A stretch of DNA of 64,000 nucleotides from Elusimicrobiota bacterium (GTDB taxonomy: Bacteria > CG03 > SLGR01). The translations under genes were made by a program, and so were the position numbers. Of the stretch, positions 2,555 to 21,988 are shown one piece after another. Under the pieces are notes generated by a model that saw nothing but the letters and a program-made list of their open reading frames with translations, was not told the origin of the DNA and ran no database searches. Numbering within the stretch: position 1 is the stretch's first letter; the number at the start of each line of letters is the position of its first letter. Location: positions 1 to 64,000 of the forward strand of contig PWEK01000052.1 of the NCBI GenBank assembly GCA_003553445.1, read 5' to 3'.

Positions 2555-3916
2555 ATGAATCTGGCAAAATTACTGACACAGGATCTAAAATATTATCTGT
2601 CCAAAAGGGACAGAAGAGAGTTGAGGTACATCCTTAATGAAATGGAGCCTGTCGATATCGCTCTGGCCTGGAAAGAATTCTCAGAGCACGACCGGCATAT
2701 TCTTTTTTCACTTATAAAACCTCAGCGGCAGGCATCCCTGCTGGGCCGTTTGGAAAAAGAATTTCAGGAAGAAATAACCTCATACCTTTCTTCATCAGAG
2801 CTGGCCGAAATCATCAACCTGATGGCTCCTGACGAAAGAGCTGATTTACTTGAAGGACAAAAACCTGGCCGGCTGAAAGATATTTTTGCGGCCATGGGGC
2901 CGGAAGCGGCCCGCGATGCAAAAAACCTGATGTTATACGCGCCGGATACCGCCGGCGGTGTAATGACCACAGAATATGCAGGAGTAAATGAAGATATGAC
3001 CGCCAGGGAAACCCTTCTTAACCTACAGGGCTCCATACCTAAAGAGCGCCAAAGAAATATAAATGCGGTATATTCAGTTGATAATAGCGGACGTGTTTCC
3101 GGAGCCTGTTCCATCATGAACCTTATTACCGCTGACCCTGAAGAAAAAATCTCTGACATTTCCAGGGATGTAAAGAACATAAAAATTCTTGCCGGCACGG
3201 ATATTGAAGAAGTAGCGGCGCTTTTTACCCGTTATGATATGCTTTCAGCGCCAGTTATTGATAAAAATGAAAGGCTTGTTGGAATCATTACTATCGACGA
3301 TGTAATAGATGTAATAAGAGACGAAGCTGAAGAAGACATTGCCTTTATGGCAGGTGTTAATCCAGAAGATTTTCACAGACAGAAACTTTCCGGAAAGCTG
3401 AAAACAAGGGTTCCCTGGCTGCTACTTGCCTGGATAGGCGGAATTGTAGCTGGTGGAATAATAGATGCTTACGAGCAGACTCTTGAACAGGCAGTTGCCC
3501 TGGCTGCATTTATCCCGGTAATAATGCATATGGGAGGTACTATCGGGGTTCAATCATCAACGGTTGTTGTCCGATGGCTTGCGTTTAAAAAAATAGCCCC
3601 CACCGGTATTCTCCGTATCTTTTTAAGAGAATTCTCAACAGGCTTTATTCTCAGTCTTATCTATGCCGCCCTGCTGGCTGCAGTATCTCATATAAGATAC
3701 GGTTCTTTTTCAGAAATGTCGAGATTATGGCTCGTAACAGGCGGGGGAATTGGAGCTGTTATGCTGCTTGCAGCTTTTACAGGTGTAATTCTGCCTTTAG
3801 GATTCAAAAAATTCAGCATTGACCCTGCGGTAGCTACCGGGCCTATAATTACAACAGCAATTGATGTGCTGGGATTGGGTGTATATTTTATTCTTGCAAC
3901 AAGGATCCTTTTATGA
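2555..3916 (+). CDS. mgtE: Magnesium transporter MgtE (copy 1, variant pore loop)
   Basis: Inner-membrane Mg2+ channel/transporter, 453 residues, normal family length. It has the N-terminal helical MgtE_N domain (to about 125), a CBS pair (about 130-255; IITIDDVIDVI is the end of CBS2), then about five membrane helices. The final helix has the conserved DPAVATGP and TTAIDVLGLG segments that carry the pore aspartate. The usual pore-region motif MDMGGNVGVQSS seen in its neighbour is changed here to MHMGGTIGVQSS, losing an Asp and the conserved Asn. Its ATG/TGA overlaps the next mgtE by 4 bp, so the two are translationally coupled. The pore change could alter selectivity or make this a regulatory subunit; that is inference. 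Confidence 0.93.
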   Translation: MNLAKLLTQDLKYYLSKRDRRELRYILNEMEPVDIALAWKEFSEHDRHILFSLIKPQRQASLLGRLEKEFQEEITSYLSSSELAEIINLMAPDERADLLEGQKPGRLKDIFAAMGPEAARDAKNLMLYAPDTAGGVMTTEYAGVNEDMTARETLLNLQGSIPKERQRNINAVYSVDNSGRVSGACSIMNLITADPEEKISDISRDVKNIKILAGTDIEEVAALFTRYDMLSAPVIDKNERLVGIITIDDVIDVIRDEAEEDIAFMAGVNPEDFHRQKLSGKLKTRVPWLLLAWIGGIVAGGIIDAYEQTLEQAVALAAFIPVIMHMGGTIGVQSSTVVVRWLAFKKIAPTGILRIFLREFSTGFILSLIYAALLAAVSHIRYGSFSEMSRLWLVTGGGIGAVMLLAAFTGVILPLGFKKFSIDPAVATGPIITTAIDVLGLGVYFILATRILL

Positions 3917-5256
3917 AATTAAGAAGAAGAACTCCCGTCAAATCAATTAAACGCCTACTGAAATCAAATTCCCAGGAGATAGAATCCGCTCTCGACCGCC
4001 TGCAGGCGGTTGACCTGGCTGAGATATGGCATCATTTTAACACTGAGGAAAGAGTTGGGCTTTTTGAATCAATCAGCAGAGATTTCCAAAGCGAAGTATT
4101 CGAGAAGCTCGATTTGGAGTATCAGAAAGAACTCCTTGACAATTTAAACACTTCACAGATATCTCAAACCCTTAATTCAATGGCCCCGGACGACCGCGCC
4201 GATCTTTTTGCCAAACTTCCGGAATATAAAGCAGAAAGCCTTCTGTCGGTAATGAAAAGGACAGAGGCCCGGGACGTGAGAGACCTCCTGGAATACGAGG
4301 AACACACAGCGGGCGGTAAGATGACCACCGACTTTGTAACGCTCTCCCCGGAAATGACAGCCAGAGAGGCGCTTGCAAAAATACAGGACTCCGTTGATAA
4401 AGAACATCAGCGTAACATTTATGCCGTATATTCCGTTGATTCTTCCGGACATCTTTTAGCTGGAATACTTCTGCAAAAACTGATTGCATCAGACCCCGAT
4501 GTAAAAATTAAAGACATTACCCGGACTGTCGATCGAATAAAGATCAATGAAAAAGAAGACCAGGAACGGGTGGCAAATATATTCGCTCATTATGATCTTC
4601 TTTCGGCTCCTGTTGTAGATGACGATGACAAATTAGTAGGTGTAATCACAATTGATGATATCGTAGATGTAATCCATGAAGAATTAAATGAAGACATCGC
4701 CATAAAAGCAGGAACCGAGGTGCTTGACTTTGAACCGAAAAGCATACTTAAGTCTGTTAAAACACGCTGGCTGTGGCTTATGACATCATTTGCCGGCGGC
4801 TTAGCAGCCGCAGTAATAATTGGTATATTTGAAGGAACTCTGGCCGAAGTTGCGGCGCTTGCGGTATTTATACCAATAATCATGGATATGGGGGGAAACG
4901 TGGGAGTGCAGTCCTCAACAGTTGTGGTTCGGCGGCTGGCATTAAACAGGGCAGAACATAACTGGCATGAAATAGCATCTGGTGAGCTTCTTTCCGGGTT
5001 GCTGATGAGCGCAGGATTCGGGATCCTTTTGTGGATCGCTGCAAACTACCGGTATACTTCCAGTATTGCCTGGGCCAGCGGACTAGGGATAGCTCTTGCT
5101 CTGGCTATTTCAACCGTACTGGGAGTTTTTCTACCTATTTTTTTTCATAAACATAATATCGACCCCGCTATTTCAACCGGCCCGTTAATCACAACCGCAA
5201 TAGATGTTATAGGCCTTGGAGTTTATTTTCTACTTGCAATATGGATTGTTCTTTAA
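3913..5256 (+). CDS. mgtE: Magnesium transporter MgtE (copy 2)
   Basis: Second MgtE, 447 residues: MgtE_N superhelical domain, CBS pair (ending VITIDDIVDVI) and a five-helix membrane domain. The pore motif MDMGGNVGVQSS and the C-terminal DPAISTGP/TTAIDVIGLG segments are intact, so this copy should be a functional Mg2+ transporter. In the family the cytosolic N and CBS domains bind Mg2+ and close the pore when the ion is plentiful. It overlaps copy 1 by 4 bp (ATGA) and was probably produced by tandem duplication. No M-box riboswitch can fit upstream of the pair, because the gap before copy 1 is only 45 bp. The gene converges on nikR with 7 bp between stops and no visible terminator. Confidence 0.95.
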   Translation: MKLRRRTPVKSIKRLLKSNSQEIESALDRLQAVDLAEIWHHFNTEERVGLFESISRDFQSEVFEKLDLEYQKELLDNLNTSQISQTLNSMAPDDRADLFAKLPEYKAESLLSVMKRTEARDVRDLLEYEEHTAGGKMTTDFVTLSPEMTAREALAKIQDSVDKEHQRNIYAVYSVDSSGHLLAGILLQKLIASDPDVKIKDITRTVDRIKINEKEDQERVANIFAHYDLLSAPVVDDDDKLVGVITIDDIVDVIHEELNEDIAIKAGTEVLDFEPKSILKSVKTRWLWLMTSFAGGLAAAVIIGIFEGTLAEVAALAVFIPIIMDMGGNVGVQSSTVVVRRLALNRAEHNWHEIASGELLSGLLMSAGFGILLWIAANYRYTSSIAWASGLGIALALAISTVLGVFLPIFFHKHNIDPAISTGPLITTAIDVIGLGVYFLLAIWIVL

Positions 5257-5263
5257 GATATTT

Positions 5264-5698
5264 TTAAGTATTCAAAGTATGTTCGGGCCTGCATTCTTCA
5301 AGACAGGCAACCGTCAACGAGGCAAATTTAACCCCCTTCTGAGACCTTAGCTTATTTGTTAAATGCTGCATTTCCTTTCCGGTTCCCTTTACAATTATTA
5401 TTTCCATGCAATTATTGTGATCCAGGTGTATATGCTGGTTGCAGATTGCTACTCCGTGAAATCCGTGCTGTATCTCAACGATTTTTGAAACAAGATTCCG
5501 TTTATGATGATTATATACAACTATTATTGCCCCGTTAGCTTTCTTATCAGCGGAGACTGCTTCCTTCTTCAATGAATCGCGTATTATGTCTTCAATCGCT
5601 TTGGATCTTGTGGAGTATCCCCTTCGCTTAACATAATCATCAAATTTTTCAACGAGATACTTATCAGCTGAAATTCCGAATCTTTTTAATTCAGCCAT
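5264..5698 (-). CDS. nikR: Nickel-responsive transcriptional regulator NikR
   Basis: Ribbon-helix-helix repressor with a C-terminal ACT-like nickel-sensing domain, 144 residues. The N-terminal RHH part is about residues 1-48 (RFGIS, YSTRSKAIEDIIRD). The four high-affinity Ni2+ ligands known in E. coli NikR (His76, His87, His89, Cys95) are present with identical spacing as His78, His89, His91 and Cys97. It normally represses nickel uptake genes when nickel is bound. No nickel transporter or nickel enzyme is in this window, and no GTATGA-N16-TCATAC operator was found. It lies 27 bp downstream of two DUF4168 lipoprotein genes and may be transcribed with them. Confidence 0.93.
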   Translation of the reverse strand: MAELKRFGISADKYLVEKFDDYVKRRGYSTRSKAIEDIIRDSLKKEAVSADKKANGAIIVVYNHHKRNLVSKIVEIQHGFHGVAICNQHIHLDHNNCMEIIIVKGTGKEMQHLTNKLRSQKGVKFASLTVACLEECRPEHTLNT

Positions 5699-5725
5699 CA
5701 GCTTTTTTCCAATTCCTTTTTCTGA

Positions 5726-6214
5726 TTATTTACCTTCATCGCGTATTGACATGTATTTTTGATAAAGTTCCTCATCATACTGAAGCGATGCTGAAATTTC
5801 CTCATATCTTTCAAGCGTCATTCCCGAGTCTTCTATGACCTCTTCCTGCTTTCTTTTATTCTTTTCCCGAAGCTCCTCCACCTTTTCACTTGCCTGTGAA
5901 TACCTCTGCATCTCTTCTTCAGAAACTTCAATATCAAGAGCCTGCAGTTGAGCCCTGTCTATTTCATGAAACCTCTCCACCTCCAAGCCGGCATTTTCTA
6001 TTTCTGATATCATTGTATTTTGAATATCAGCAGCTACATTCTGAGCTTTTTCTGTAATACGCGTATATTCTCTAAGGTCTTCCTCGCTTATATCTTCTTC
6101 ATAAATATCCAGTGCCATGTCCGTATCAACTTCTTCATGTTCAAGCTCCCTGGCCGCGCAAGCAAACATCAAAAAACAAATAACCACAAACAAAAATCCT
6201 GCTGATTTCCTCAT
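5726..6214 (-). CDS. DUF4168-type lipoprotein (second of a tandem pair)
   Basis: Predicted exported lipoprotein, 162 residues, function unknown. It has a short charged start, a hydrophobic stretch and a Cys at about position 19 in a lipobox-like context (LMFACA). The mature part is strongly charged and helical. It holds two copies of the pattern seen in DUF4168 proteins: an acidic start (SEEDLREY, SEEEMQRY), a coiled-coil-like helix and a GLEVERFHEI or GMTLERYEEI segment. It lies 25 bp downstream of a paralogue with the same layout, so the pair arose by duplication. DUF4168 proteins are usually periplasmic or envelope-associated, but no activity is established. Confidence 0.75.
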   Translation of the reverse strand: MRKSAGFLFVVICFLMFACAARELEHEEVDTDMALDIYEEDISEEDLREYTRITEKAQNVAADIQNTMISEIENAGLEVERFHEIDRAQLQALDIEVSEEEMQRYSQASEKVEELREKNKRKQEEVIEDSGMTLERYEEISASLQYDEELYQKYMSIRDEGK

Positions 6215-6239
6215 GTACTTCTCCCCTTATATTCTTTTT

Positions 6240-6803
6240 TTACTTTGCCAGCTCTATGTATCTTTGCCTTACCGCAGGGTTCTGCTGAACACTGATTGAT
6301 ATTTCCTGAAACCTCTGGAAATCCAATCCTGCATCCTTTATTTTTCTTTCCTGCTTTTTGTGCAGTTCCGGCTGTATTTCTTCTACATCTCGCTGGGCAA
6401 TTTTGAACATTTCCCTTTTCTCGTCGTCAAGCTCCATATCTCTTCCCTGATACTTTGCCTCTCTTATCTCCTTAAACCTTTCCAGCTCCAGACCGTATTG
6501 CCCTACAATTTCATCAATTTTCTCATCGATCTCTACAGCGACCTTTTGAATATTACGTGAAGCCTCTATATATTTTTTAATATCCTCATCTGTTATATCG
6601 GTTTCTTCATATTCCTTCGCTATTTCATCGTCAGCTTCCTGTCTTTTCTGCTCGGCGTCCGGAACTTCTTTATTTTCTTCCTCCCTGAATAAATCCGTAT
6701 ACTCCTTTTCAGGAGACGGTCTCCGAGTATCCTTTACGGACGTACATGCGGCAAAAAACAGAAACAACAATAAGAACGCTGCTGACATTACTATGGATTT
6801 CAT
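6240..6803 (-). CDS. DUF4168-type lipoprotein (first of a tandem pair)
   Basis: Predicted lipoprotein, 187 residues, paralogous to the next gene. A signal peptide is followed by a lipobox ending FFAAC, which places the modified Cys near residue 20. A low-complexity charged linker (about 25-70) follows, then two DUF4168-like units (TDEDIKKY...LELERFKEI and a second ending GLDFQRFQEI). An SD-like GGAGGG precedes the ATG, and a well-formed promoter lies at 6838-6866. The gene heads a likely transcript with the second lipoprotein and nikR. The role is unknown; envelope stress or metal-related roles are only guesses from position. Confidence 0.75.
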   Translation of the reverse strand: MKSIVMSAAFLLLFLFFAACTSVKDTRRPSPEKEYTDLFREEENKEVPDAEQKRQEADDEIAKEYEETDITDEDIKKYIEASRNIQKVAVEIDEKIDEIVGQYGLELERFKEIREAKYQGRDMELDDEKREMFKIAQRDVEEIQPELHKKQERKIKDAGLDFQRFQEISISVQQNPAVRQRYIELAK

Positions 6804-6837
6804 ATTGCCCTCCTAATTTTTCTTCTTACTTATTACA

Positions 6838-6866
6838 AGTATAGTATTTAAACTAATTATTTTCAA
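6838..6866 (-). promoter_or_regulatory. Sigma70-type promoter for the DUF4168-nikR cluster
   Basis: Read on the minus strand: -35 TTGAAA (6861-6866), a 17-base spacer and -10 TATACT (6838-6843), about 34 bases before the start codon of the first lipoprotein gene. Both boxes are five of six to consensus. Confidence 0.55.
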
Positions 6867-6921
6867 TTTACCGACATATTGAAAATAGATTGTTTTTTAT
6901 ATTATTATAAGAAAAGAGGAA

Positions 6922-7761
6922 ATGAAAAATCAACTTCCGGAAAATCTAAAAGGGAAAGAATTAAAAGATTCATATAAAAGTCTTTCCCGCTTGCTTATAA
7001 ATCGCCCTGCAAAAGAAAAGAAGGTTACGGGTATCAACGGTCCTCCCGGCTGCGGAAAAACAACACTATGCAGAAAAATAAAACATCACCTTCGAAAAAA
7101 TGACATCAATACGGTTACCCTCTCTATAGACGACTTTTACTGGACATATAACAGAAGAAAAAGCGAAGCTAACGATAAAAAGCTTTTGGACGTTAGAGGA
7201 CCGGGAACCCATGACATACCTCTAGCCTTAAAAACACTTAATAACCTTCTGAAAGCAAAAGAAGGGTCAGAAACCCCCCTGCCACGCTTTAACAAGTGGC
7301 TAAAAAACGGCAGGGGGGACAGGGCTCCGGCAAATGAATGGGAAATATTCAAGGGTTCCCCGGATATAATCATACTTGAAGGCTGGAATATCTGTCAGGA
7401 ACCGATTCCTGACAGCGAACTTAAACGCCCTTTCAACATTCTGGAAAAATCAGACTCTCCAAACGGCAGGACAAGAAAATATATCAACAAAAGGCTCAAA
7501 GAAGATTATCCGAAGCTATGGAAATACATCGGATTTCTGATAATGATAAAAATAGATGGCATAAAAACAGTCTATAAACAAAGAGAAGAGCAGGAAAAAG
7601 AGCTAAGAAAGAAGGGCAAAAGCGCAATGAAAGAAAAAGAAATAGTTGACTTCATAAACCATTACGAACGATGGATTATAAACATACAAAAAACCCTTGG
7701 AGAAAAGTCGGACGTAGTTATTGAAATAGATGAAGATAGGAAAATAAGGAGAGTAAAATGA
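6922..7761 (+). CDS. D-glycerate 3-kinase-like P-loop kinase
   Basis: Probable ATP-dependent kinase making 3-phosphoglycerate from D-glycerate, 279 residues, length and layout of the plant/fungal GLYK family (related to PRK/uridine kinases). The Walker A motif is GPPGCGKT (residues 40-47). A DDFYWT motif and the family-typical RGPGTHD segment follow, then IIILEGW as the Walker B-like strand. The start is the ATG with AGAGGA just upstream. The stop overlaps the ATG of the mannosylglycerate synthase gene by 4 bp (ATGA). Glycerate is the acceptor of that synthase, and 3-phosphoglycerate is the acceptor used by MpgS next door, so the kinase probably sets which route is fed. The substrate assignment rests on family resemblance and this context. 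Confidence 0.8.
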   Translation: MKNQLPENLKGKELKDSYKSLSRLLINRPAKEKKVTGINGPPGCGKTTLCRKIKHHLRKNDINTVTLSIDDFYWTYNRRKSEANDKKLLDVRGPGTHDIPLALKTLNNLLKAKEGSETPLPRFNKWLKNGRGDRAPANEWEIFKGSPDIIILEGWNICQEPIPDSELKRPFNILEKSDSPNGRTRKYINKRLKEDYPKLWKYIGFLIMIKIDGIKTVYKQREEQEKELRKKGKSAMKEKEIVDFINHYERWIINIQKTLGEKSDVVIEIDEDRKIRRVK

Positions 7762-8951
7762 ACAAAAACACAAGCCTCGTATCATTTCCGTTTAAGGTTG
7801 AAGATGTTGACGTATTCGTAAACAACATACGCACTGCTGCATCGCTCCCGGTTGTTAATGAGGTTCTATGCGTAGGCGCAGAGAAAAACGAGTGTTACAA
7901 GAAAGCACAGAAAAAAGTTATGCAGGATCCTTGCTTAAAAGATAAAAACATTACTTTTAAGGTCCAGGAGCGCCTTGGAAGCAAAAGGCCCGGTAAAGGA
8001 GACGGAATGAATACCGCATTAAAATATTTCGTGGAAAACTCCAACTGCAGGAGGATTCACTTTTATGACGCCGACATAAAAAACTTTTCATATAAATGGG
8101 TCCTTGAATCAGAACGCTCTGCCAATATGGGGTTTGACGTTGTACGGCACTACTTTCCGCGCGCCAGAACAGATGCTATGATAACATGGATGATTACGAA
8201 AACCGGTTTTTCAATACTCTTTCCGGATTCTCAGCTTCCTTTTATCGAACAGCCCCTGGGCGGCGAACTTCTGATGGAAAAAAAAGTGGCAGAGAAGTTA
8301 ATTTCGGATAAGGATGTAATAATTCAATCAGACTGGGGCATTGACACAATTTACACCTACAAAATGATTAAGAACCGGTTTTCAATGTATGAAGCTTATA
8401 TGAGCGAAGGAAAAAGTCATTCGCTTTATCCGGGGCTTGATTCCCTTGAATCAATGCTTTACGAATGTTTCTGTGTTATTTATAATCTGAAGGATAAAAA
8501 AAAGAAAATCAAGCACATAAAACACAGAATAGAGCACGCATCCAGCGTTTCAAATGAGGTTGAACACAAGCTGGGATTTGACATACAAAAAACCCTCCTG
8601 CTCCTTAAGCAGGGCTGGACTGAGAAACAATTTGAGCTCCTTGAGTTTTTTCCCGGGGAAGTAAGAGACAACATGAAAAAGAATAAAGAGATCCCAATTT
8701 TTGACTTTATGGATGATGCGGCATGGTATAAAACCTATAAAACTATGCTCGAGAACTTTGTTCAAGGAGACAAAGACTGGAGAAAGCTCATTTTCAAACT
8801 CTGGGTAGCCAGGGTTCTGTGGTATACTACTAACGTTGCCCTGAAAGGCTATGATTTTTCATTTATGCACTTATACAGGATGATTGATAATTATGCGCGG
8901 GTCTCAAAAAACGTTGAAACTAATGACACTTTTCAGGCTCCCGAAGTATAA
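7758..8951 (+). CDS. mgs: Mannosylglycerate synthase (single-step, GT78)
   Basis: Glycosyltransferase using GDP-mannose and D-glycerate to form the osmolyte 2-O-alpha-mannosylglycerate in one step. The 397-residue protein matches the Rhodothermus marinus enzyme, as I recall its sequence, along its whole length. Shared segments include PFKVEDVDVFVNN at the N-terminus, RPGKGDGMNTAL (residues 77-88), the metal-binding DAD at 104-106 (HFYDADI), RHYFPRA, TDAMITWMITKTGF, EQPLGGELLM and SDWGIDT. The C-terminal helical part is also conserved (FKLWVARVL, ALKGYD). It overlaps the upstream kinase by 4 bp. Its 3' end overlaps the convergent mpgP by 32 bp. GT78 enzymes can be loose about acceptor and sugar, so glucosylglycerate as product cannot be excluded. 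Confidence 0.93.
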   Translation: MNKNTSLVSFPFKVEDVDVFVNNIRTAASLPVVNEVLCVGAEKNECYKKAQKKVMQDPCLKDKNITFKVQERLGSKRPGKGDGMNTALKYFVENSNCRRIHFYDADIKNFSYKWVLESERSANMGFDVVRHYFPRARTDAMITWMITKTGFSILFPDSQLPFIEQPLGGELLMEKKVAEKLISDKDVIIQSDWGIDTIYTYKMIKNRFSMYEAYMSEGKSHSLYPGLDSLESMLYECFCVIYNLKDKKKKIKHIKHRIEHASSVSNEVEHKLGFDIQKTLLLLKQGWTEKQFELLEFFPGEVRDNMKKNKEIPIFDFMDDAAWYKTYKTMLENFVQGDKDWRKLIFKLWVARVLWYTTNVALKGYDFSFMHLYRMIDNYARVSKNVETNDTFQAPEV

Positions 8952-9717
8952 CATCCTCCACCGCTTCGGCAAAACCAGAAGGGCCTGTTGAAGAAGTCAG
9001 GTAAAATTTCTCATCATAAACCCTTTTGGCGCTTACTAAAATAGGGTTGTCAACTGACCTGAGTAAGGGAATATCGTTTTCGCTGTCTCCTATACCGTAG
9101 GTTACAGTATCACCCCATTTTCTTTTATATAAACCAATAAGCAAACCTGCGGCTTTACCCTTGTCCGCACCGGACCCTATAAGATTCATATACTTACCAC
9201 CGTGCACTAACGTCAATGAATATTTCGAAGCCGCTTTTCTGACAACTTCCATATTCCCCTCGAAGGAAAAACTTTCACTGTATTTCCTTCTCCTGGCCAA
9301 TTCGGCAAGCTCATAAGACATATTCGCTTCTTTAGCGACTTCTTCAGCAGTCAACTCCTTGCGGCCCTTTATATTGCAGCCTGTCTTCTCTCTTATTTCT
9401 CTCATGGCTTTTTTAATTATCTTGTATGAAACACCCAATTCAATTATATTATATTTACCCCATTCCCTGGAATATCCGTATTTAAAATCAAAGTATTTCT
9501 TTGGAATGTAAACAGCAGAGCCGTTTTCTGTAATGAAAGGCTGGTGCAACCAGAAAACATTCTGGTAATACTCATTTTCCGCAGGAGTCTTACCAGTGGC
9601 AAAAACTAACGGAATTGAATGTTTTTTTAACTTTTCAACCGAGGGAAGAGACTCCTCAAATGAATAATTTTTGAAATCTATTAGAGTTCCGTCTAAATCC
9701 GTAAAAACTATCTTCAT
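8920..9717 (-). CDS. mpgP: Mannosyl-3-phosphoglycerate phosphatase
   Basis: HAD-superfamily (Cof/MPGP type) phosphatase removing phosphate from mannosyl-3-phosphoglycerate to give mannosylglycerate, 265 residues. The HAD motifs are FTDLDGT with nucleophile Asp7 and Asp9, FATGK for motif 2, and IGDSENDIPLL for motif 4. The cap region and the segment NLIGSGADKGKA match MPGP proteins. It lies 6 bp after mpgS on the same strand, the usual mpgS-mpgP pairing. It ends with TAG and its last 32 bp run antisense into the end of mgs. The start at 9717 gives the standard MKIVFTDLDGT N-terminus. Confidence 0.93.
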   Translation of the reverse strand: MKIVFTDLDGTLIDFKNYSFEESLPSVEKLKKHSIPLVFATGKTPAENEYYQNVFWLHQPFITENGSAVYIPKKYFDFKYGYSREWGKYNIIELGVSYKIIKKAMREIREKTGCNIKGRKELTAEEVAKEANMSYELAELARRRKYSESFSFEGNMEVVRKAASKYSLTLVHGGKYMNLIGSGADKGKAAGLLIGLYKRKWGDTVTYGIGDSENDIPLLRSVDNPILVSAKRVYDEKFYLTSSTGPSGFAEAVEDVILREPEKCH

Positions 9718-9723
9718 TCTGCT

Positions 9724-10917
9724 TCAGGATTTCAGAGTTGTAATTAATTCTTCAGGCAGATTTTTTTCAAAAGCCTTGTAGTTTAATTTGGAAAGAGGAG
9801 GATAATATATGCCTTTCTCCAGTTTTTCCTCCTTTTTTAATGCATTTCGTGATGTCAGCTCCTGAATTATCTCTTTTTTGAGCGGGTCAGGACACACATG
9901 AGAATGATACATCACTTTTAGGGAATCTTTTATCATGTTATTTATATGATTTTTACCCTTCTTCTGGTGAAAATGAGGGTTCCTTGAATTTACCTGGAAA
10001 ATTTCAATAAAGTCATTCATTACTCTTTTTTCAGGAACTTTTTCCAATCCGCCGAATTTTTCCATAAGACTTATGTAATGATATGTTTCGATTGAATAAC
10101 CCGATGAATACCCGAGAACCATTGCAAGATCCGTTGATAGTGCATGCTCACCGGCATTTCCCGTCCTTATAATCTCCGTTTCAAAACCGGTATAGTAACT
10201 TATCAGTTTATTTAGAAATTTGTTTGTAACCACTGAAGATCGGCCCTGTTTCGTGAAAAAAAGGTTATTTCTGGATATCTCCGGCTTGTTATACCAGGAT
10301 ATTCTTATCATTGAAAACCTTGATTCACTTATGGAAAACCCCGCTGCATACTCCTTAATGTACTCATGCACCGAACCCGGGAAATAATTATCAGCATCAA
10401 TAAACCCGATATATTTCTTTCCCGATATCTTTGCAAGCGCCATGGCAAGAACCATCCCCTCGCCTTTGCCATCTTTTATAATTCCCTTTTTATCCAGTAT
10501 TTCGGTATAATTGGCTTCTTTTAAGGCTCTGGCAATTTTTTTATCTTTCTGATATACAATTGTTATCGGCCTTCCTGTCGTCTTTCGAATATTGTCAACA
10601 AGCTTTTTCTCCATTATAAATCTGTCAGCCGGCTCCTTGCTGCTGTTTGACACCACGATAACCTCACAATGATGCGGCACGGCAAAAAGAACTCCTTCAA
10701 TAAGCTTAAGCGGTACATCTCTTACAGGGACAACTATTGCCATTTTTTCTTCTATCGCATACGATTCTTCATAAGAGATATTATAATATGGAAGGCTTAT
10801 TGACTCCTTTTCGGGAGACTTCTTACGCAAGCCGGAATCAAGCAGCATTACGCGCTGAAGCTCATATATTATATTTGCGCCAAATCTTTCAAGTTCTCCG
10901 GGTATTTCTATAATCAT
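9724..10917 (-). CDS. mpgS: Mannosyl-3-phosphoglycerate synthase (GT55)
   Basis: Transfers mannose from GDP-mannose to 3-phosphoglycerate, the first step of the two-step mannosylglycerate route. The 397-residue protein matches archaeal and Thermus MpgS throughout. Recognisable segments are the start IEIPGELERFGA, MAIVVPVRD (about 59-67), KGEGM (151-155), the metal-binding DADNY (174-178), TGNAGEHALS, GYSIETYHYI and NPHFHQKKGK. MpgS from several lineages is fused to its phosphatase; here they are separate genes 6 bp apart. The N-terminus aligned with known enzymes supports the ATG at 10917. No Shine-Dalgarno precedes it; instead a -10 box sits 6 bases upstream, so the mRNA may be leaderless. 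Confidence 0.95.
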   Translation of the reverse strand: MIIEIPGELERFGANIIYELQRVMLLDSGLRKKSPEKESISLPYYNISYEESYAIEEKMAIVVPVRDVPLKLIEGVLFAVPHHCEVIVVSNSSKEPADRFIMEKKLVDNIRKTTGRPITIVYQKDKKIARALKEANYTEILDKKGIIKDGKGEGMVLAMALAKISGKKYIGFIDADNYFPGSVHEYIKEYAAGFSISESRFSMIRISWYNKPEISRNNLFFTKQGRSSVVTNKFLNKLISYYTGFETEIIRTGNAGEHALSTDLAMVLGYSSGYSIETYHYISLMEKFGGLEKVPEKRVMNDFIEIFQVNSRNPHFHQKKGKNHINNMIKDSLKVMYHSHVCPDPLKKEIIQELTSRNALKKEEKLEKGIYYPPLSKLNYKAFEKNLPEELITTLKS

Positions 10918-14488: not shown

Positions 14489-15850
14489 CTATGCAAGCAA
14501 GGCGATAAAAGCAGTTGAAAGCCCCAGGTATATGCTTACACCGGTTATATCTGTAATTGTGGTAAGAACCGGTCCTGTCATCATTGCAGGATCCTTTCCA
14601 AGTGACTTTATCAAGAATGGAAGTGTTCCTCCAACAAACCCTGCCACCAGAACATTTATACCGAGAGCCGCACCCGCTACAAGCCCCAAATAAGGGTTCC
14701 CGCGCATAAAAAAGGCTACAAAAGCAAACAAAAGTCCCAGCGCCAGGCCATTCATCATACCTACAGCAACCTCTTTTTTTATTACTTTTTTAAAATCACT
14801 TATCCTGGCCTCCTCCATGGCTATGCTCCTTATAGCAACAGAAAGAGCCTGTATCCCGACATTGCCCCCCATATCAGTTATCATAGGTATAAAAGCCGCA
14901 AGTATAGCCACCCTGGCAATTGTTTCTTCAAAACCGGTGATTACAGCCACCGCCCCCAGGTTTAGAAACACATTTGCCGCCATCCACGGCAGCCTTCCCC
15001 TTACCGCCTTAACAGGCGGTGTGAAAAATGACTCTTCGGGGGAAACGGCAGAATGGGACGTAATCAACTGCGCCGATTCGTTTGACAGCACCCTCATAGC
15101 ATCGTCAAAGGTTATTACCCCTGCTATTTGCCCATTACCGTCTACTACCGGAAGCATCATTAACTTGCGGTTTCTTATTATAGCTGCAGCCTGATGATCG
15201 CTATCTGATACCGAAACCGTTACCAATGCCGGGTTCATCACGTCTTTAACCGGCCTCGTTTTCTCAGCTCTAAGAAGATCCTTTATTGAAATAACCCCGG
15301 CAGGCCTATTCTTATTGTCAAGCACATAAACATAAGGCGTATGCTCGATTTCCGGCGGTGCGGATAGAATGCTTTCCATTGTTTCTTTAACGGTTTGGTG
15401 TCCATATGCCGAAACATAATAAGGCGAAATAAGGCGCCCCGCGCTGTTTTCCGGGTAATTTTTTATATTCCTAATATGATCCTGAATTTTTTTTTCAAGT
15501 TGCCCCGTAAGTTTTTTTTCTTCCTCTTCATCAAGAGATTCAAGTATCGCTAAAATATTGTCAGCCGGAATATTGTTAACTATTTTTACTTTAATGGGAT
15601 AGGGAAGAGTTTCAAGAACACTGGATGCGAAATCCATCGACATCCTGGAAAGAACCCTTCCCGCATAATTTTTATCCATCTTCAACAGGCACTGCCCTGC
15701 CTTTTCAGGTTCCGTCCCTTCAAGAATATATGCAGCTCTTGAAGGCGATAGCTGGCGACTTAAATAAACCGCCTTCTTAAATTTCCCCGCCTCAATGCTT
15801 TCCGCCATTTGTAACGCTGTTTCTTCAAGCAATTGTGAATTTATAATCAT
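14489..15850 (-). CDS. mgtE: Magnesium transporter MgtE (copy 3)
   Basis: Third MgtE of the window, 453 residues, on the opposite strand and about 9 kb from the tandem pair. It has MgtE_N (to about 130), a CBS pair (VISIKDLLRAE, VITFDDAMRVL) and a five-helix membrane domain. The pore motif TDMGGNVGIQAL is close to consensus, and the last helices keep DPAMMTGPVLTTITDITG with the pore aspartates. It is more divergent from copies 1 and 2 than they are from each other, so it is not a recent duplicate. It ends in TAG and stands apart from its neighbours as a single gene. Confidence 0.93.
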   Translation of the reverse strand: MIINSQLLEETALQMAESIEAGKFKKAVYLSRQLSPSRAAYILEGTEPEKAGQCLLKMDKNYAGRVLSRMSMDFASSVLETLPYPIKVKIVNNIPADNILAILESLDEEEEKKLTGQLEKKIQDHIRNIKNYPENSAGRLISPYYVSAYGHQTVKETMESILSAPPEIEHTPYVYVLDNKNRPAGVISIKDLLRAEKTRPVKDVMNPALVTVSVSDSDHQAAAIIRNRKLMMLPVVDGNGQIAGVITFDDAMRVLSNESAQLITSHSAVSPEESFFTPPVKAVRGRLPWMAANVFLNLGAVAVITGFEETIARVAILAAFIPMITDMGGNVGIQALSVAIRSIAMEEARISDFKKVIKKEVAVGMMNGLALGLLFAFVAFFMRGNPYLGLVAGAALGINVLVAGFVGGTLPFLIKSLGKDPAMMTGPVLTTITDITGVSIYLGLSTAFIALLA

Positions 15851-17080: not shown

Positions 17081-18144
17081 AAATAGCAATAATTGCTCCT
17101 CCTTGGAGAACATTACCTGCACACAAAAGCGCAGGCATAGAATCCACAATAACTGATTTATGTGAAGAATTCCATTCAATGAACCAAGACACCCTGCTCT
17201 TTGCGCCACGGGGTTCATCGGTAACATCACCTATTGAGCACTACCCGTATAACAGATCAAAAACCAACTTTCACGATTATGATGAAGATACAAGAAATTA
17301 CATTAAACAGATTCTTACAAAGTATGCTTCTGTAAAGGCAGTCAACCTGGGGGCCGATATAATACATAACTTCACATTATCGGGAGAATACGAAAACCCC
17401 GTACCATCGCTTCATACCGTATACGGCCCGCCTTCAGAAAAAACGGTAAAAGAAATAAAAAACATATCCCATAAACCCAGTAACTACTTTGTCTCTGTAT
17501 GCGACTATCAGAAAGTTCTTTTTTCAAGAATTTCACCCAGCATTAATTTTATCGATACGGTATATAAGTCAATCAATACAGAAAAAATAGAATGGACATC
17601 AAAAAAGAACAATTACCTTCTTTTTATGGGATACCATCAGCATTTTAAAGAACTTCAACTGGCTAGCAGGGTTTCCAAAGCGGCCGGAATAAGACTTGTT
17701 GCGATTATGCAAAAAGACAACAGGCAAACATACAAAGAAGAAATCAAGCCGTGGCTTAAATCCAAAACAATAAATTTGAGTCTTCAATTCAGTGAAGAAT
17801 TACTGCCTGAAGCAAGGTACGACATGTATAAAAAAGCAGCCGCAACAATCCATATAAACCATTGGGATGACCCTTTTGGAATGCAGATGCTTGAATCACT
17901 GGCCTGCGGAACGCCGGTTATTGCTCTTAAAAAGGGCGCAGCGTCTGAAGTAATCAAAAACGGAATGAACGGTTATATTGCCTCTACCGAATTAGAACTC
18001 ATAGAAGCCTTAAAAAATATAGATAAAATAAACAGGAAAAACTGCAGAAAATCGGTGGAAACTAAATTCTCTTCTAAGGTTATTGCAAAAAAATACCTTC
18101 AAATATATAAAAATATTTTGAACGGAAAAATACTTGATCAGTAG
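17077..18144 (+). CDS. GT4-like paralogue with degraded active-site motifs
   Basis: Paralogue of the preceding gene with the same length (355 residues), start (KIAIIAPPWRTLP) and ending (EALKNIDKINRKNCRK). Key positions have changed: GYGGTE became SAGIES, FVGRINWEKG became FMGYHQHFKE (losing the Arg and Lys that bind the donor phosphate), and the first Glu of E-x7-E is Asp265 (DPFGMQMLE). The fold is kept, so it may be an inactive partner of the upstream enzyme. It is coupled to that gene by ATGA and ends in TAG. Its last 7 bp overlap the convergent GH65 gene. Confidence 0.82.
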   Translation: MKIAIIAPPWRTLPAHKSAGIESTITDLCEEFHSMNQDTLLFAPRGSSVTSPIEHYPYNRSKTNFHDYDEDTRNYIKQILTKYASVKAVNLGADIIHNFTLSGEYENPVPSLHTVYGPPSEKTVKEIKNISHKPSNYFVSVCDYQKVLFSRISPSINFIDTVYKSINTEKIEWTSKKNNYLLFMGYHQHFKELQLASRVSKAAGIRLVAIMQKDNRQTYKEEIKPWLKSKTINLSLQFSEELLPEARYDMYKKAAATIHINHWDDPFGMQMLESLACGTPVIALKKGAASEVIKNGMNGYIASTELELIEALKNIDKINRKNCRKSVETKFSSKVIAKKYLQIYKNILNGKILDQ

Positions 18145-20852
18145 TATCCGCCCAGATAATCCGCAATTATGTCCCTTCGGTCTATTACCCCAATAACCTT
18201 ATCCTTTTCAATAACAGGCAGTCTTCTAATACCATGCCCTGTAAAAACCTTTGTTACTTCTTCTATTGACTCGTTGAAATCTACAGAAACGTAATTACTG
18301 CTCATTATATCCTTGGCTTTCAACTTTTCATAATCTGAGCGATAAGAGACTGCTTTTATAATATCCCTCTCAGAAATAACCCCCTCAATTTTCATTTTTT
18401 CATCTACAACAGGTATACTTGAGACCTTTCTTTCAAGTATTATCTTTCCAACTTCTTTTACAGGTTCATTTTCTTTTACATATACATCATTTCCAGGTTT
18501 TATCATGTCTTTTGCTGTTTCCATATATCCAAAACCTCCATCCTTTCTAATTTCCTTACATTCCCCCGGCTTTAATTTTATTTTTCTTCCATAAACTTTT
18601 ATTTCTCTGGATCCTGAATCGCTAAATGCAGAATTCTTAACCTTTATACTAACTGACTTATTTTCCCTTATTTCAATTTCAAATAAAGATTTCCTGAAAA
18701 ATAAACTAAACCTTATCCTTTTGAAGTTCCCCGGCAACACAGGATTGATGCTTAGAATTCCTTCCCTGCATCGAACACCTGCAAAACCGAAAATTACAGC
18801 CTGCCAGACCCCGCCAAGGTTTGCAGCATGGATTCCATCTTCAAGATTTTTTGGTATATTTTTTAAGTCTATATTTGCAGCGCCCCAAAAAAAATTAAAT
18901 GCATTAAACCTCTCAGCAATCTGTGATGAGATTAATGAATGCATTGAATACGACAGAGAGGACTTGTGAAGTGTCCGGTTTACATAATAACTGTAGTTTC
19001 TTTTCTTTTCCTTGTCTGAAAAATCCGACGGGAATAGATTAAAAAGAAGAAGCACATCGGCCTGCTTTATAAATCTGGATTTTTCAAGCCTTCTGCTGGT
19101 TTCGTAAATTTTAGGTGCTTGAGGCATAAAATATCTGTCATATCCCGATATGCTAACATCCTTTTTTCTTAAATAGTTTCTAAACTGTTTTATTATACCA
19201 AGTTTCTTTGAACGAAGCACCGCGAAATTTTCAGCCATTTCCCCCCATCTGAGAACTTCCGAAACCTTTAAATCTATTTTTTTCATCATGTTTTTAATTT
19301 TAGGATAATCTTTAAACTCTTCATATATTTCCCGTCCGTATCTCAAGTTCCACATAGCCATATAATTTGTAAAAGCGTTATCATCAACATTTGTATGAAA
19401 CTCGTCAGGCCCCGTGACACCTTTCACATGATATTTATTGTCAGAGGAATCATACGATGCCCTCTCACTCCAGAACCTTGCGGTTTCAAAAATCACTTCT
19501 ACGGCATGATCTATCATGAATTCTTCATCATCTGTGTTTTGATAATAATCATATATCCCGTAGGCAACATCTGCCGTTATATGGTGCTCATAGTCCATTG
19601 TAGTGACTTCAACAATGCTTCCATCCACATCCTTTGCATATCTTGGGGTTTGTTCAGTTCCGCTAACAGTTGTCTCCCAGGGATACATCGCTCCCCGGAA
19701 ACCATTTTTACGAGCATTTGCCCTTGCTTCATCCAGTGCCGAGCACCTGAACATAAGTATTTCTTTTGCAATCTCAGGCTGAGTATGAATAAGAAAAGGA
19801 AGAATATATAACTCTGTGTCCCAGAAAACATGTCCTCTGTAACCCTGGCCGCTCATTGTTTTTGCGCCTATGCTGTTAATACTGGAGTACTCCCTGCTGG
19901 TACATATTAGAATATGGTAAATGTTAAACCTTACAGCTCGCTGACTTTCACTATCACCCTCAATTTCCACATCGCACCTTTTCCAGCGTTTACTCATTGC
20001 CTCTTTATGTTCAGAAAACAGTTTTTCATATCCCTTGTCTACGGCCATAGACAGTTTTCTCATAGCAGAAGACTTTATCGACCTTCTCGAATATTCCCTG
20101 CCGGCACCTATTGTGAAATATTTTGTAAATGTGATATTCTGGCCTTTTTTCAATTCAAACCAGTATATCCTGTCAATCAAAGATAATCCTGAGCTACCTT
20201 TTTTGACATGGATTAAATCTGCATAAGAAACAAGGTTTTTATAAGAATGAGTTGAAAAAAGAGTATAGTCGGCAGTCCCCTCCTTATCAACTTTTATTGT
20301 ATCAAAATGCCTTCTCCTTGAAAGCATCATTCCTCCGCTGTTAAATACAGAATCATCAATCCCGTTGACCATTGTGAGAGATGCCGACCCTTTCAGCTGT
20401 GACAATTTCACCTTTAAAGCGCCTATGTGAGGATCTGCCATGCTGAAAAATCTTGCCGACTGATAAAGGTATTTTCTTTTTTTGGCATCCTCATATACTG
20501 TGCTTCTTAACAAAACACCGTTTTTCATATCCAGAATTCTTCTGTGACATAAATAGTTCATGGTGCCTATGTCAAATTTTTCCCCCTCAACTGCAATCAT
20601 AATATTAATCGGGTTAGGAAGGTTTACAAGCTCTTCTACCTGAGCTCCTGATCTGTCATAAATCCCTGCCACAAATGTTCCAGGTTGAGAGCCCGGTGTG
20701 TTTTCTTCATAAATGCCACGGGAGCCTATCAGGCCGTTTCCCAGAGTAAATAGGGTTTCGTAGTTATTTAACTTTTCTTTTGTAAACCCCTTTTCTTCTA
20801 CATGAAATGTTTTTTCTAAGGAAAGATACTTGTTAAAAAAATCACTTTTCAT
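18138..20852 (-). CDS. GH65 glycoside phosphorylase with C-terminal CBS pair
   Basis: Cytosolic inverting phosphorylase of the maltose/trehalose/kojibiose phosphorylase family (GH65), 904 residues. It would split an alpha-linked glucoside with phosphate to give beta-glucose 1-phosphate. Residues 1-270 form the N-terminal beta-sandwich (NYETLFTLGNGLIGSRG). The (alpha/alpha)6 barrel carries FWDTELYILP, and GPDEFHTNVDDNAFTNYM holds the general acid Glu484. HKSSLSYSMHS is the phosphate-site segment. From about residue 785 two CBS motifs follow (VSSIPVVDEK...GVISERDIIK; RRLPVIEKDKVIGVIDRRDII), an unusual addition. The substrate is unknown. It is coupled to the aminotransferase gene by ATGA and overlaps the GT4 pair at its 3' end. 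Confidence 0.88.
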   Translation of the reverse strand: MKSDFFNKYLSLEKTFHVEEKGFTKEKLNNYETLFTLGNGLIGSRGIYEENTPGSQPGTFVAGIYDRSGAQVEELVNLPNPINIMIAVEGEKFDIGTMNYLCHRRILDMKNGVLLRSTVYEDAKKRKYLYQSARFFSMADPHIGALKVKLSQLKGSASLTMVNGIDDSVFNSGGMMLSRRRHFDTIKVDKEGTADYTLFSTHSYKNLVSYADLIHVKKGSSGLSLIDRIYWFELKKGQNITFTKYFTIGAGREYSRRSIKSSAMRKLSMAVDKGYEKLFSEHKEAMSKRWKRCDVEIEGDSESQRAVRFNIYHILICTSREYSSINSIGAKTMSGQGYRGHVFWDTELYILPFLIHTQPEIAKEILMFRCSALDEARANARKNGFRGAMYPWETTVSGTEQTPRYAKDVDGSIVEVTTMDYEHHITADVAYGIYDYYQNTDDEEFMIDHAVEVIFETARFWSERASYDSSDNKYHVKGVTGPDEFHTNVDDNAFTNYMAMWNLRYGREIYEEFKDYPKIKNMMKKIDLKVSEVLRWGEMAENFAVLRSKKLGIIKQFRNYLRKKDVSISGYDRYFMPQAPKIYETSRRLEKSRFIKQADVLLLFNLFPSDFSDKEKKRNYSYYVNRTLHKSSLSYSMHSLISSQIAERFNAFNFFWGAANIDLKNIPKNLEDGIHAANLGGVWQAVIFGFAGVRCREGILSINPVLPGNFKRIRFSLFFRKSLFEIEIRENKSVSIKVKNSAFSDSGSREIKVYGRKIKLKPGECKEIRKDGGFGYMETAKDMIKPGNDVYVKENEPVKEVGKIILERKVSSIPVVDEKMKIEGVISERDIIKAVSYRSDYEKLKAKDIMSSNYVSVDFNESIEEVTKVFTGHGIRRLPVIEKDKVIGVIDRRDIIADYLGGYY

Positions 20853-21988
20853 CTACCGCTGAACTTCTCTAAAGCGGCTTTAACTCCGCATCCAAGGACA
20901 TTTCTTTCTCCCAGATCGTTTAATGTAGCTTCGATGGCGGCAAGAGATTTCACAACATCCATCTCATCATAATATCCCATATGCGCAATTCTGAATATTT
21001 TTCCTTTTAGATGAGCCTGGCCTCCCGCAAGAACAACTCCATATTTTTTTTCACAATGCTTTGTAAAACTCTCTCCGATCTTATCGGGAGAAGGTATCTT
21101 AACTGCAGTAAGTCCGGCGGCGGGCGACTTTGAAAATATTTCAAGCCCCATTTCTTCTATTCCCGCCTGCGCGCCACCGGACAGTTTTTGATGACGCCCC
21201 CAGACAGCCTCCATCCCCTCCGAAATTATCATCTTTAAAGAGTTATTTAAGCCTTTTATCAGGTTTACCGGGGAAGTGTAGGGTGTCTGCATTTTACCAA
21301 GGGATTTCTGTGATTTTTTCAAATTCCAGTAATAATTCTTTCTTTTATTTTCCTGTAATGCATCTTTAGCTTTTGAGTTCACGCATACAAACCCCAATCC
21401 CGGCGGAGTCATAAGCGCTTTTTGGGAACCGGAAACGACAACATCGACATCCCATTTATCCATTTCAAGTCTATCGCAGCCGAGTCCGCTTACAGCATCT
21501 ACCACAAGCAACACCCCTGCCTGCGAAGTGACTTCGGCCAATTCTCTAATTGGGTTTACGGTACCGGTTGATGTTTCTACGAGTGTTGCAAAAACCGCTT
21601 TTATATTTTTTTCTTTAATAACTTTCCTAACATCATCTGGCTTGCAATAATCCCCCCATTCATATTCAATAATTTCGGCATTTACATCAAAGGACTTACA
21701 TAAATCCCTCCAGCGCTCTCCGAACTTCCCAGATACGATAACGGCGGCAGAATCTCCGGGAGAAGTAAAATTTAAAACAGCTGCCTCCATTGCTCCCGTT
21801 CCTGTTGATGAAAGTATATGCACGTCGCTTTTTTCTGACGCAAATACATATTTAAGGTTTTCTGTTGTCTCCCTAAAAAGTTCTTTAAAAACCTGTTTTC
21901 TATGATGAATTACAGGTTTTGCACTCTCTAAAAGTGTTTCCTGGGGAACTTCTGTAGGTCCCGGTGTAAAAAGCTGTTTTTTATCCAT
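20849..21988 (-). CDS. Class V aminotransferase (alanine/serine-glyoxylate or -pyruvate type)
   Basis: PLP enzyme of the AGXT/serine-pyruvate aminotransferase group, 379 residues. The N-terminus LFTPGPTEVP is diagnostic, SSTGTGAMEA binds the cofactor phosphate, VVDAVSGLG carries the ring-binding Asp, and Lys190 in SGSQKALMTPPG forms the Schiff base. Related enzymes convert serine or alanine with glyoxylate or pyruvate. The product hydroxypyruvate can lead to glycerate, which would link it to the glycerate-based osmolyte genes, but that is speculative. AAGGAG precedes the ATG. It lies 26 bp after purH and overlaps the GH65 gene by 4 bp, so the three probably form one transcript. Confidence 0.88.
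   Translation of the reverse strand: MDKKQLFTPGPTEVPQETLLESAKPVIHHRKQVFKELFRETTENLKYVFASEKSDVHILSSTGTGAMEAAVLNFTSPGDSAAVIVSGKFGERWRDLCKSFDVNAEIIEYEWGDYCKPDDVRKVIKEKNIKAVFATLVETSTGTVNPIRELAEVTSQAGVLLVVDAVSGLGCDRLEMDKWDVDVVVSGSQKALMTPPGLGFVCVNSKAKDALQENKRKNYYWNLKKSQKSLGKMQTPYTSPVNLIKGLNNSLKMIISEGMEAVWGRHQKLSGGAQAGIEEMGLEIFSKSPAAGLTAVKIPSPDKIGESFTKHCEKKYGVVLAGGQAHLKGKIFRIAHMGYYDEMDVVKSLAAIEATLNDLGERNVLGCGVKAALEKFSGR

Follow-up and report, generated by a model that had tools for sequence, protein, structure and literature searches.

Both routes to mannosylglycerate and a putative class III glycerate kinase in one Sumerlaeota locus, best read as a glycerate/3-phosphoglycerate node

The present analysis shows that both routes to mannosylglycerate (MG) and a putative D-glycerate 3-kinase are packed into one locus of a Sumerlaeota genome. 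In our preferred reading the locus is a glycerate/3-phosphoglycerate node for MG and more than two redundant pathways, and we consider it fairly probable that it forms a module for MG synthesis built on the D-glycerate/3-phosphoglycerate pair. The window, that is the whole stretch of 64,000 nucleotides analysed, is from a contig of a 2.22-Mb MAG with an estimated contamination of 5.6%. All four open reading frames that the preliminary description had placed at 6922-10917 were recovered. On the plus strand GLYK, assigned as a class III (plant-type) D-glycerate 3-kinase (6922-7761, 279 aa), is the first gene of a pair and overlaps by 4 bp the GT78 mannosylglycerate synthase MGS (7758-8951, 397 aa), for which the predicted acceptor is D-glycerate and the predicted donor GDP-mannose. 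On the minus strand the GT55 mannosyl-3-phosphoglycerate synthase MpgS (9724-10917, 397 aa) and the HAD-IIB mannosyl-3-phosphoglycerate phosphatase MpgP (8920-9717, 265 aa) are separated by a 6-bp gap. The two pairs are convergent, and the open reading frame ends and the sequence place a 32-bp overlap between the 3' ends of MGS and MpgP (8920-8951). Coordinates, families and overlap thus confirm that the two routes are present and physically joined tail to tail. Just upstream of the kinase gene, two tandem genes on the minus strand (5726-6214 and 6240-6803) code for small DUF4168-domain proteins whose starts resemble those of lipoproteins.

The family evidence is strong for both synthases. MGS matched the two MGS domains PF21969 (2.5e-93, 312 bits) and PF21967 (1.6e-32, 112 bits), passing the curated cut-off of 27 bits for each, and it aligned with the Rhodothermus marinus MGS structure 2bo4 at 5.9e-124 with about 49% identity. 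D100 and D102 of the DxD motif, K76, R131, T139, D192, H217 and Y220 are conserved; every active-site position checked carries the R. marinus residue, as do most of the binding positions. The residues chosen for this comparison are in part those which we take, from the structure papers, to be the relevant ones. MpgS passed the equivalog model TIGR02460 (5.3e-141, 470 bits against a cut-off of 351.2) and matched PF09488 (1.8e-143) and the structure 2zu7 (1e-103), its solved relatives being MpgS of P. horikoshii and T. thermophilus. MpgP passed the MPGP subfamily model TIGR01486 (208 bits against 164.75) and fell just below the cut-off of the equivalog TIGR02461 (1.1e-65, 221.9 bits against 244.35); its solved relative is the P. 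horikoshii-type MpgP (1wzc, 4e-36). It likely functions as MpgP in spite of the TIGR02461 score, because its partner MpgS adjoins it and because of the PDB matches.

The kinase gene showed only weak matches to the Pfam PRK/uridine-kinase families (PF00485, 1e-7, 32.4 bits against a cut-off of 22). The match to D-glycerate 3-kinase 7xpc was much clearer (1.3e-31 by phmmer and 7.3e-36 with a two-sequence profile, residues 35-249 being aligned), and the P-loop GINGPPGCGKTTL together with the motifs SIDDFY, RGPGTHD, PRFNK, GRGDRA and EGW align with GLYK. An AlphaFold model built from two sequences reached a mean pLDDT of 47.6. From the 7xpc match and the motifs the protein is assigned to the class III (GLYK-type) D-glycerate 3-kinases, which are unrelated to classes I and II and whose function in bacteria has been termed unclear (PMC2063504). 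The product of class III kinases is 3-phosphoglycerate (PMC10970406, PMC4378991), and from its class this would be the product of the present enzyme as well. GLYK is the sole recognised glycerate kinase in the MAG, and the genome-wide search found none of class I or II either there or in its relative CSSed165cm_109. It could be argued that only one true MG route is left, the GT78 or the kinase homologue having moved to a different substrate such as GDP-glucose, D-lactate or some other small acid; acceptor specificity cannot be fixed by sequence alone, and the class III kinases are part of a large P-loop family with varied substrates (PMC2063504). Against this stand the identity of all catalytic and most binding positions with those of R. 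marinus MGS and the intact GLYK motifs, and such drift is very improbable.

CSSed165cm_109, a MAG of a second Sumerlaeota genus, carries all four genes with order and orientation unchanged. The block claimed in the preliminary description is thus present and recurs, and its kinase, which had gone unnamed, is now assigned to class III. Identities are 80% for MpgS, 74% for MGS, 53% for GLYK and 52% for MpgP (the range is also given as 51-80%), the MGS/MpgP overlap is 20 bp, and no flanking open reading frame of this locus has a match in the window. Strong GT78, strong GT55 and true GLYK matches occurred only in these same two of 16 Sumerlaeota genomes, other matches in these genomes being weak. 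Such co-occurrence, together with a conserved block between unrelated flanks, indicates a unit that is gained or lost together. Unlinked routes in relatives had been named beforehand as an observation that would tell against the claim; in the sole Sumerlaeota relative having both, the routes are linked. That the genes are chance neighbours, or that the contig is an assembly chimera, is extremely improbable: the contamination estimate of the MAG speaks for it, but the presence of the block in an independently assembled MAG of another genus excludes an assembly artefact, and the wider survey below argues against chance.

The survey comprised 30 GT78 loci from a scan of named genomes, to which class-wide profile searches added Acidimicrobiia and Desulfovibrionia. 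GT78 and GT55 occur together in 11 genomes (two Sumerlaeota, two Desulfohalobiaceae, five Acidimicrobiia and two Rhodothermus MAGs). They are adjacent in nine of the 11, in three phyla and four gene orders, against a chance adjacency of about 0.2% per genome, and only the two Rhodothermus MAGs carry them on different contigs. The routes are convergent in Sumerlaeota and divergent in Desulfohalobiaceae. Among Acidimicrobiia all genes lie on one strand, in the order MpgS-MpgP-MGS in L022 and L102, the same order preceded by a hydrolase gene in L100 and L101, and MGS-MpgS-MpgP in L028. Opposite orientation, which had been put forward as a key feature of the locus, is therefore not general, and since orientation is not conserved, separate control of the two routes is only an inferred property. 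Across 296 Acidimicrobiia, GT78 was found in 26 genomes, GT55 in seven and both in four, all four being linked; the hypergeometric probability of this co-occurrence is 0.0014 if the kinship of the genomes is ignored. Neither GT78 nor GT55 was found in the plasmid collection. The two phylogenies that had been proposed as a check differ in what they give. In the GT55 tree the Sumerlaeota proteins are sister to the unlinked Rhodothermus GT55 (support 100/98), and a single GT55 clade for the linked loci, without Rhodothermus, unlinked Acidimicrobiia and Pyrococcus, was rejected (AU 8e-62) on a tree of few sequences and long branches. The GT78 tree is unresolved in its backbone (AU 0.07 for the linked loci as one group and 0.135 for the kinase-linked ones); it is compatible with one origin of the linked locus or several and does not decide between them. 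Because the GT55 of linked loci do not form one clade, the data favour, within the limits of so small and long-branched a tree, linked loci put together repeatedly and in different forms.

When the neighbours of GT78 were annotated, a glycerate kinase was found directly adjoining MGS in nine genomes of three phyla. It is of class III in Sumerlaeota, of class I (PF02595), followed by ManC, in Desulfohalobiaceae, and of class II (PF13660/MOFRL) in five Acidimicrobiia, which are without GT55. In a genome-wide search, 24 of the 33 GT78 genomes had a class II kinase, three had class I and two class III, and in four none was found; in no genome did two classes occur together, and in all nine genomes with an adjoining kinase this was the only glycerate kinase copy found. 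Three unrelated kinases occupying the same place argue that the association with MGS is functional and that D-glycerate would be the shared substrate; they also point to glycerate against any drift in specificity. A fourth line of evidence is the GLYK-phosphatase fusion of Pseudoalteromonas described below. Other neighbours of GT78 were noted as well. A conserved 556-aa protein (L033, 6273-7943, and orthologues) lies beside GT78 in many Acidimicrobiia, mostly divergently; it has no Pfam or NCBIfam match, and by eye its motifs are those of a HerA-like ATPase. In L012, L013 and L017 (about 3880-10590), with parts in L014, L016, L021 and L023, GT78 ends an ABC sugar-transporter operon and is convergent with a regulator that is a GntR-solute-binding-protein fusion. 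The hosts are Bipolaricaulota and MAGs labelled Caldisericota and Neomarinimicrobiota; GT78 is nearly identical across these three named phyla, which points to transfer or to contigs binned wrongly.

How the locus works can be pictured as follows. Since the gene pairs lie on opposite strands, separate transcripts are expected. The minus-strand transcript (MpgS, MpgP) would make MG from GDP-mannose and glycolytic 3-phosphoglycerate, the phosphatase making this route irreversible. The plus-strand transcript (GLYK, MGS) would handle free D-glycerate: MGS would mannosylate it directly to MG, and GLYK would convert leftover D-glycerate to 3-phosphoglycerate, the acceptor of MpgS. Either acceptor may thus end as MG, or the glycerate may re-enter central metabolism. 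For each arm we infer the substrates, the transcript, the direction of flux and the stress trigger, and, by analogy with R. marinus, the two arms may answer separate stimuli. No terminator-like site was found at the MGS/MpgP junction; each transcript therefore probably extends into the other, and they may interfere. A promoter scan gave candidates 5' of both operons, but excess matches were also obtained in AT-rich sequence and promoter assignment was dropped for either operon. The node reading has its own difficulties. A kinase in the MGS operon competes for the substrate of MGS, and the net benefit is not obvious. The five Acidimicrobiia with MGS and a class II kinase but without GT55 led us to reject, as a general rule, a kinase that solely feeds MpgS.

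The main rival is salvage, in which MGS and MpgS/MpgP both synthesise, a degrading enzyme coded elsewhere frees glycerate from MG after stress and GLYK passes it to glycolysis. Glucosylglycerate phosphorylase genes often have a glycerate kinase, GpgS or GpgP nearby (PMC7178133), and Pseudoalteromonas offers an instance. There (L162, 5959-7704) a protein annotated as HAD-IIB hydrolase only joins GLYK (residues 2-275) and an MpgP/GpgP-type phosphatase (302-563) in one chain, and its gene is followed by GpgS and a sucrose-phosphorylase-like gene. Such fusions rank among the best annotated relatives of GLYK in the plasmid collection, and the locus is a predicted glucosylglycerate operon like those of PMC7178133. 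On the other side, the MGH1-type hydrolase (PF22422), which is what the search for MG-degrading enzymes covered, was not found in either Sumerlaeota genome or in any of the nine kinase-adjacent genomes, as compared with a match in 14 of 24 other GT78 genomes (Fisher 0.004); the contrast is a weak statistic, being drawn from three lineages only and falling to 0.16 with strong matches only. On this balance salvage is rather unlikely. A GH65 kojibiose-phosphorylase-like protein with C-terminal CBS domains is coded 7 kb from the locus (18138-20852, minus strand). Its gene overlaps by 4 bp that of a class V aminotransferase of serine-glyoxylate/serine-pyruvate type (20849-21988, minus strand), which could be a source of hydroxypyruvate and hence of D-glycerate.

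The lack of a known MG hydrolase in kinase-adjacent genomes also bears on a reversible arm. Here MpgS/MpgP would synthesise irreversibly and GLYK-MGS would run backwards on stress relief, pulled by the kinase; we hold this to be quite unlikely. MG and GDP would then give GDP-mannose and D-glycerate, by analogy with sucrose synthase acting on sucrose, and as a reaction of MGS this too carries little probability. The reaction of glycerate kinase is highly exergonic (below -18 kJ/mol, PMC4378991); if MG is taken as 0.5 M and glycerate as micromolar, the concentration term would be about -20 to -33 kJ/mol, and convergent overlapping genes would favour alternating expression. The pool sizes are assumed, no report of MGS reversal was found in the accessible literature, and the Acidimicrobiia without GT55 need MGS for synthesis. 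In its widest form, with three unrelated kinase classes recruited independently beside GT78 as a reversible glycerate arm in hydrolase-free hosts whose arms alternate, the proposal is a long shot.

The locus had been taken as a sign of a halophilic or heat-adapted organism. Heat adaptation finds no support: in small samples, IVYWREL is 0.412 for the window proteins, lower than the 0.444-0.451 of Rhodothermus and the 0.461 of Bipolaricaulota loci. Halophily is a plausible trait, because the relative CSSed165cm_109 is, going by its MAG name, from Cock Soda Lake sediment; Sumerlaeota have been reported from that lake (PMC8092238). With a median pI of 8.8 the proteins of the window are not acidic, and an adaptation to salt, if there is one, would rely on organic solutes. 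The window also codes for a CPA2 Na+/H+ antiporter (23-2509) followed by tandem MgtE-type magnesium transporters (2555-3916 and 3913-5256, plus strand), the second assigned by sequence only, and for a further MgtE-type transporter 9 kb on (14489-15850, minus strand). The Sumerlaeota osmolytes that we found mentioned are betaine, proline and trehalose only (PMC8092238, PMC10866078), and MG is now added to the predicted ones. What had been treated as "two redundant pathways" in a single genus becomes a clustered arrangement that recurs and lends itself to comparison between phyla; class III glycerate kinases of bacteria gain a context-based role, and free D-glycerate is named as a branch-point metabolite. 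That both routes can coexist is already known, as are the enzymes. In the searchable literature, subscription papers being outside its scope, no description was found of the clustered forms, of a class III kinase in such a context or of unrelated kinases recurring beside GT78; the clustered arrangement and the recurrent kinase association thus appear to be new, though this is not certain.

Among known systems, R. marinus likewise has both MG routes in one organism, with a GT78 49% identical and a GT55 sister to that of Sumerlaeota. Specialised roles of its two routes had been cited earlier, and the title of Borges 2004, as given in the reference lists of PMC1224877 and PMC8490865, bears this out. 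Unlike in the present locus, the two Rhodothermus MAGs have the genes on separate contigs, with a hydrolase of MGH1 type beside MpgS and no glycerate kinase next to MGS. In Desulfohalobiaceae (L019, L020), too, a single locus brings MGS and a glycerate kinase together with MpgS and MpgP, but in divergent orientation and with the class I kinase downstream of MGS; their locus includes the GDP-mannose pyrophosphorylase ManC and an inositol-phosphate-synthase-like gene. In Acidimicrobiia (L022/L102, L028, L100/L101) MGS adjoins MpgS and MpgP as well, but on a single strand, in three layouts and with no adjacent kinase, and L100/L101 carry the extra hydrolase of MGH1 type. The glucosylglycerate operons (GGaP, GpgS, GpgP, glycerate kinase) similarly tie a glycerate kinase to glycosylglycerate metabolism (PMC7178133), and that of Pseudoalteromonas shares the class III kinase, there fused to the phosphatase. 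They differ in using glucose and not mannose, and GpgS and not GT55, in having a phosphorylase and in having no GT78.
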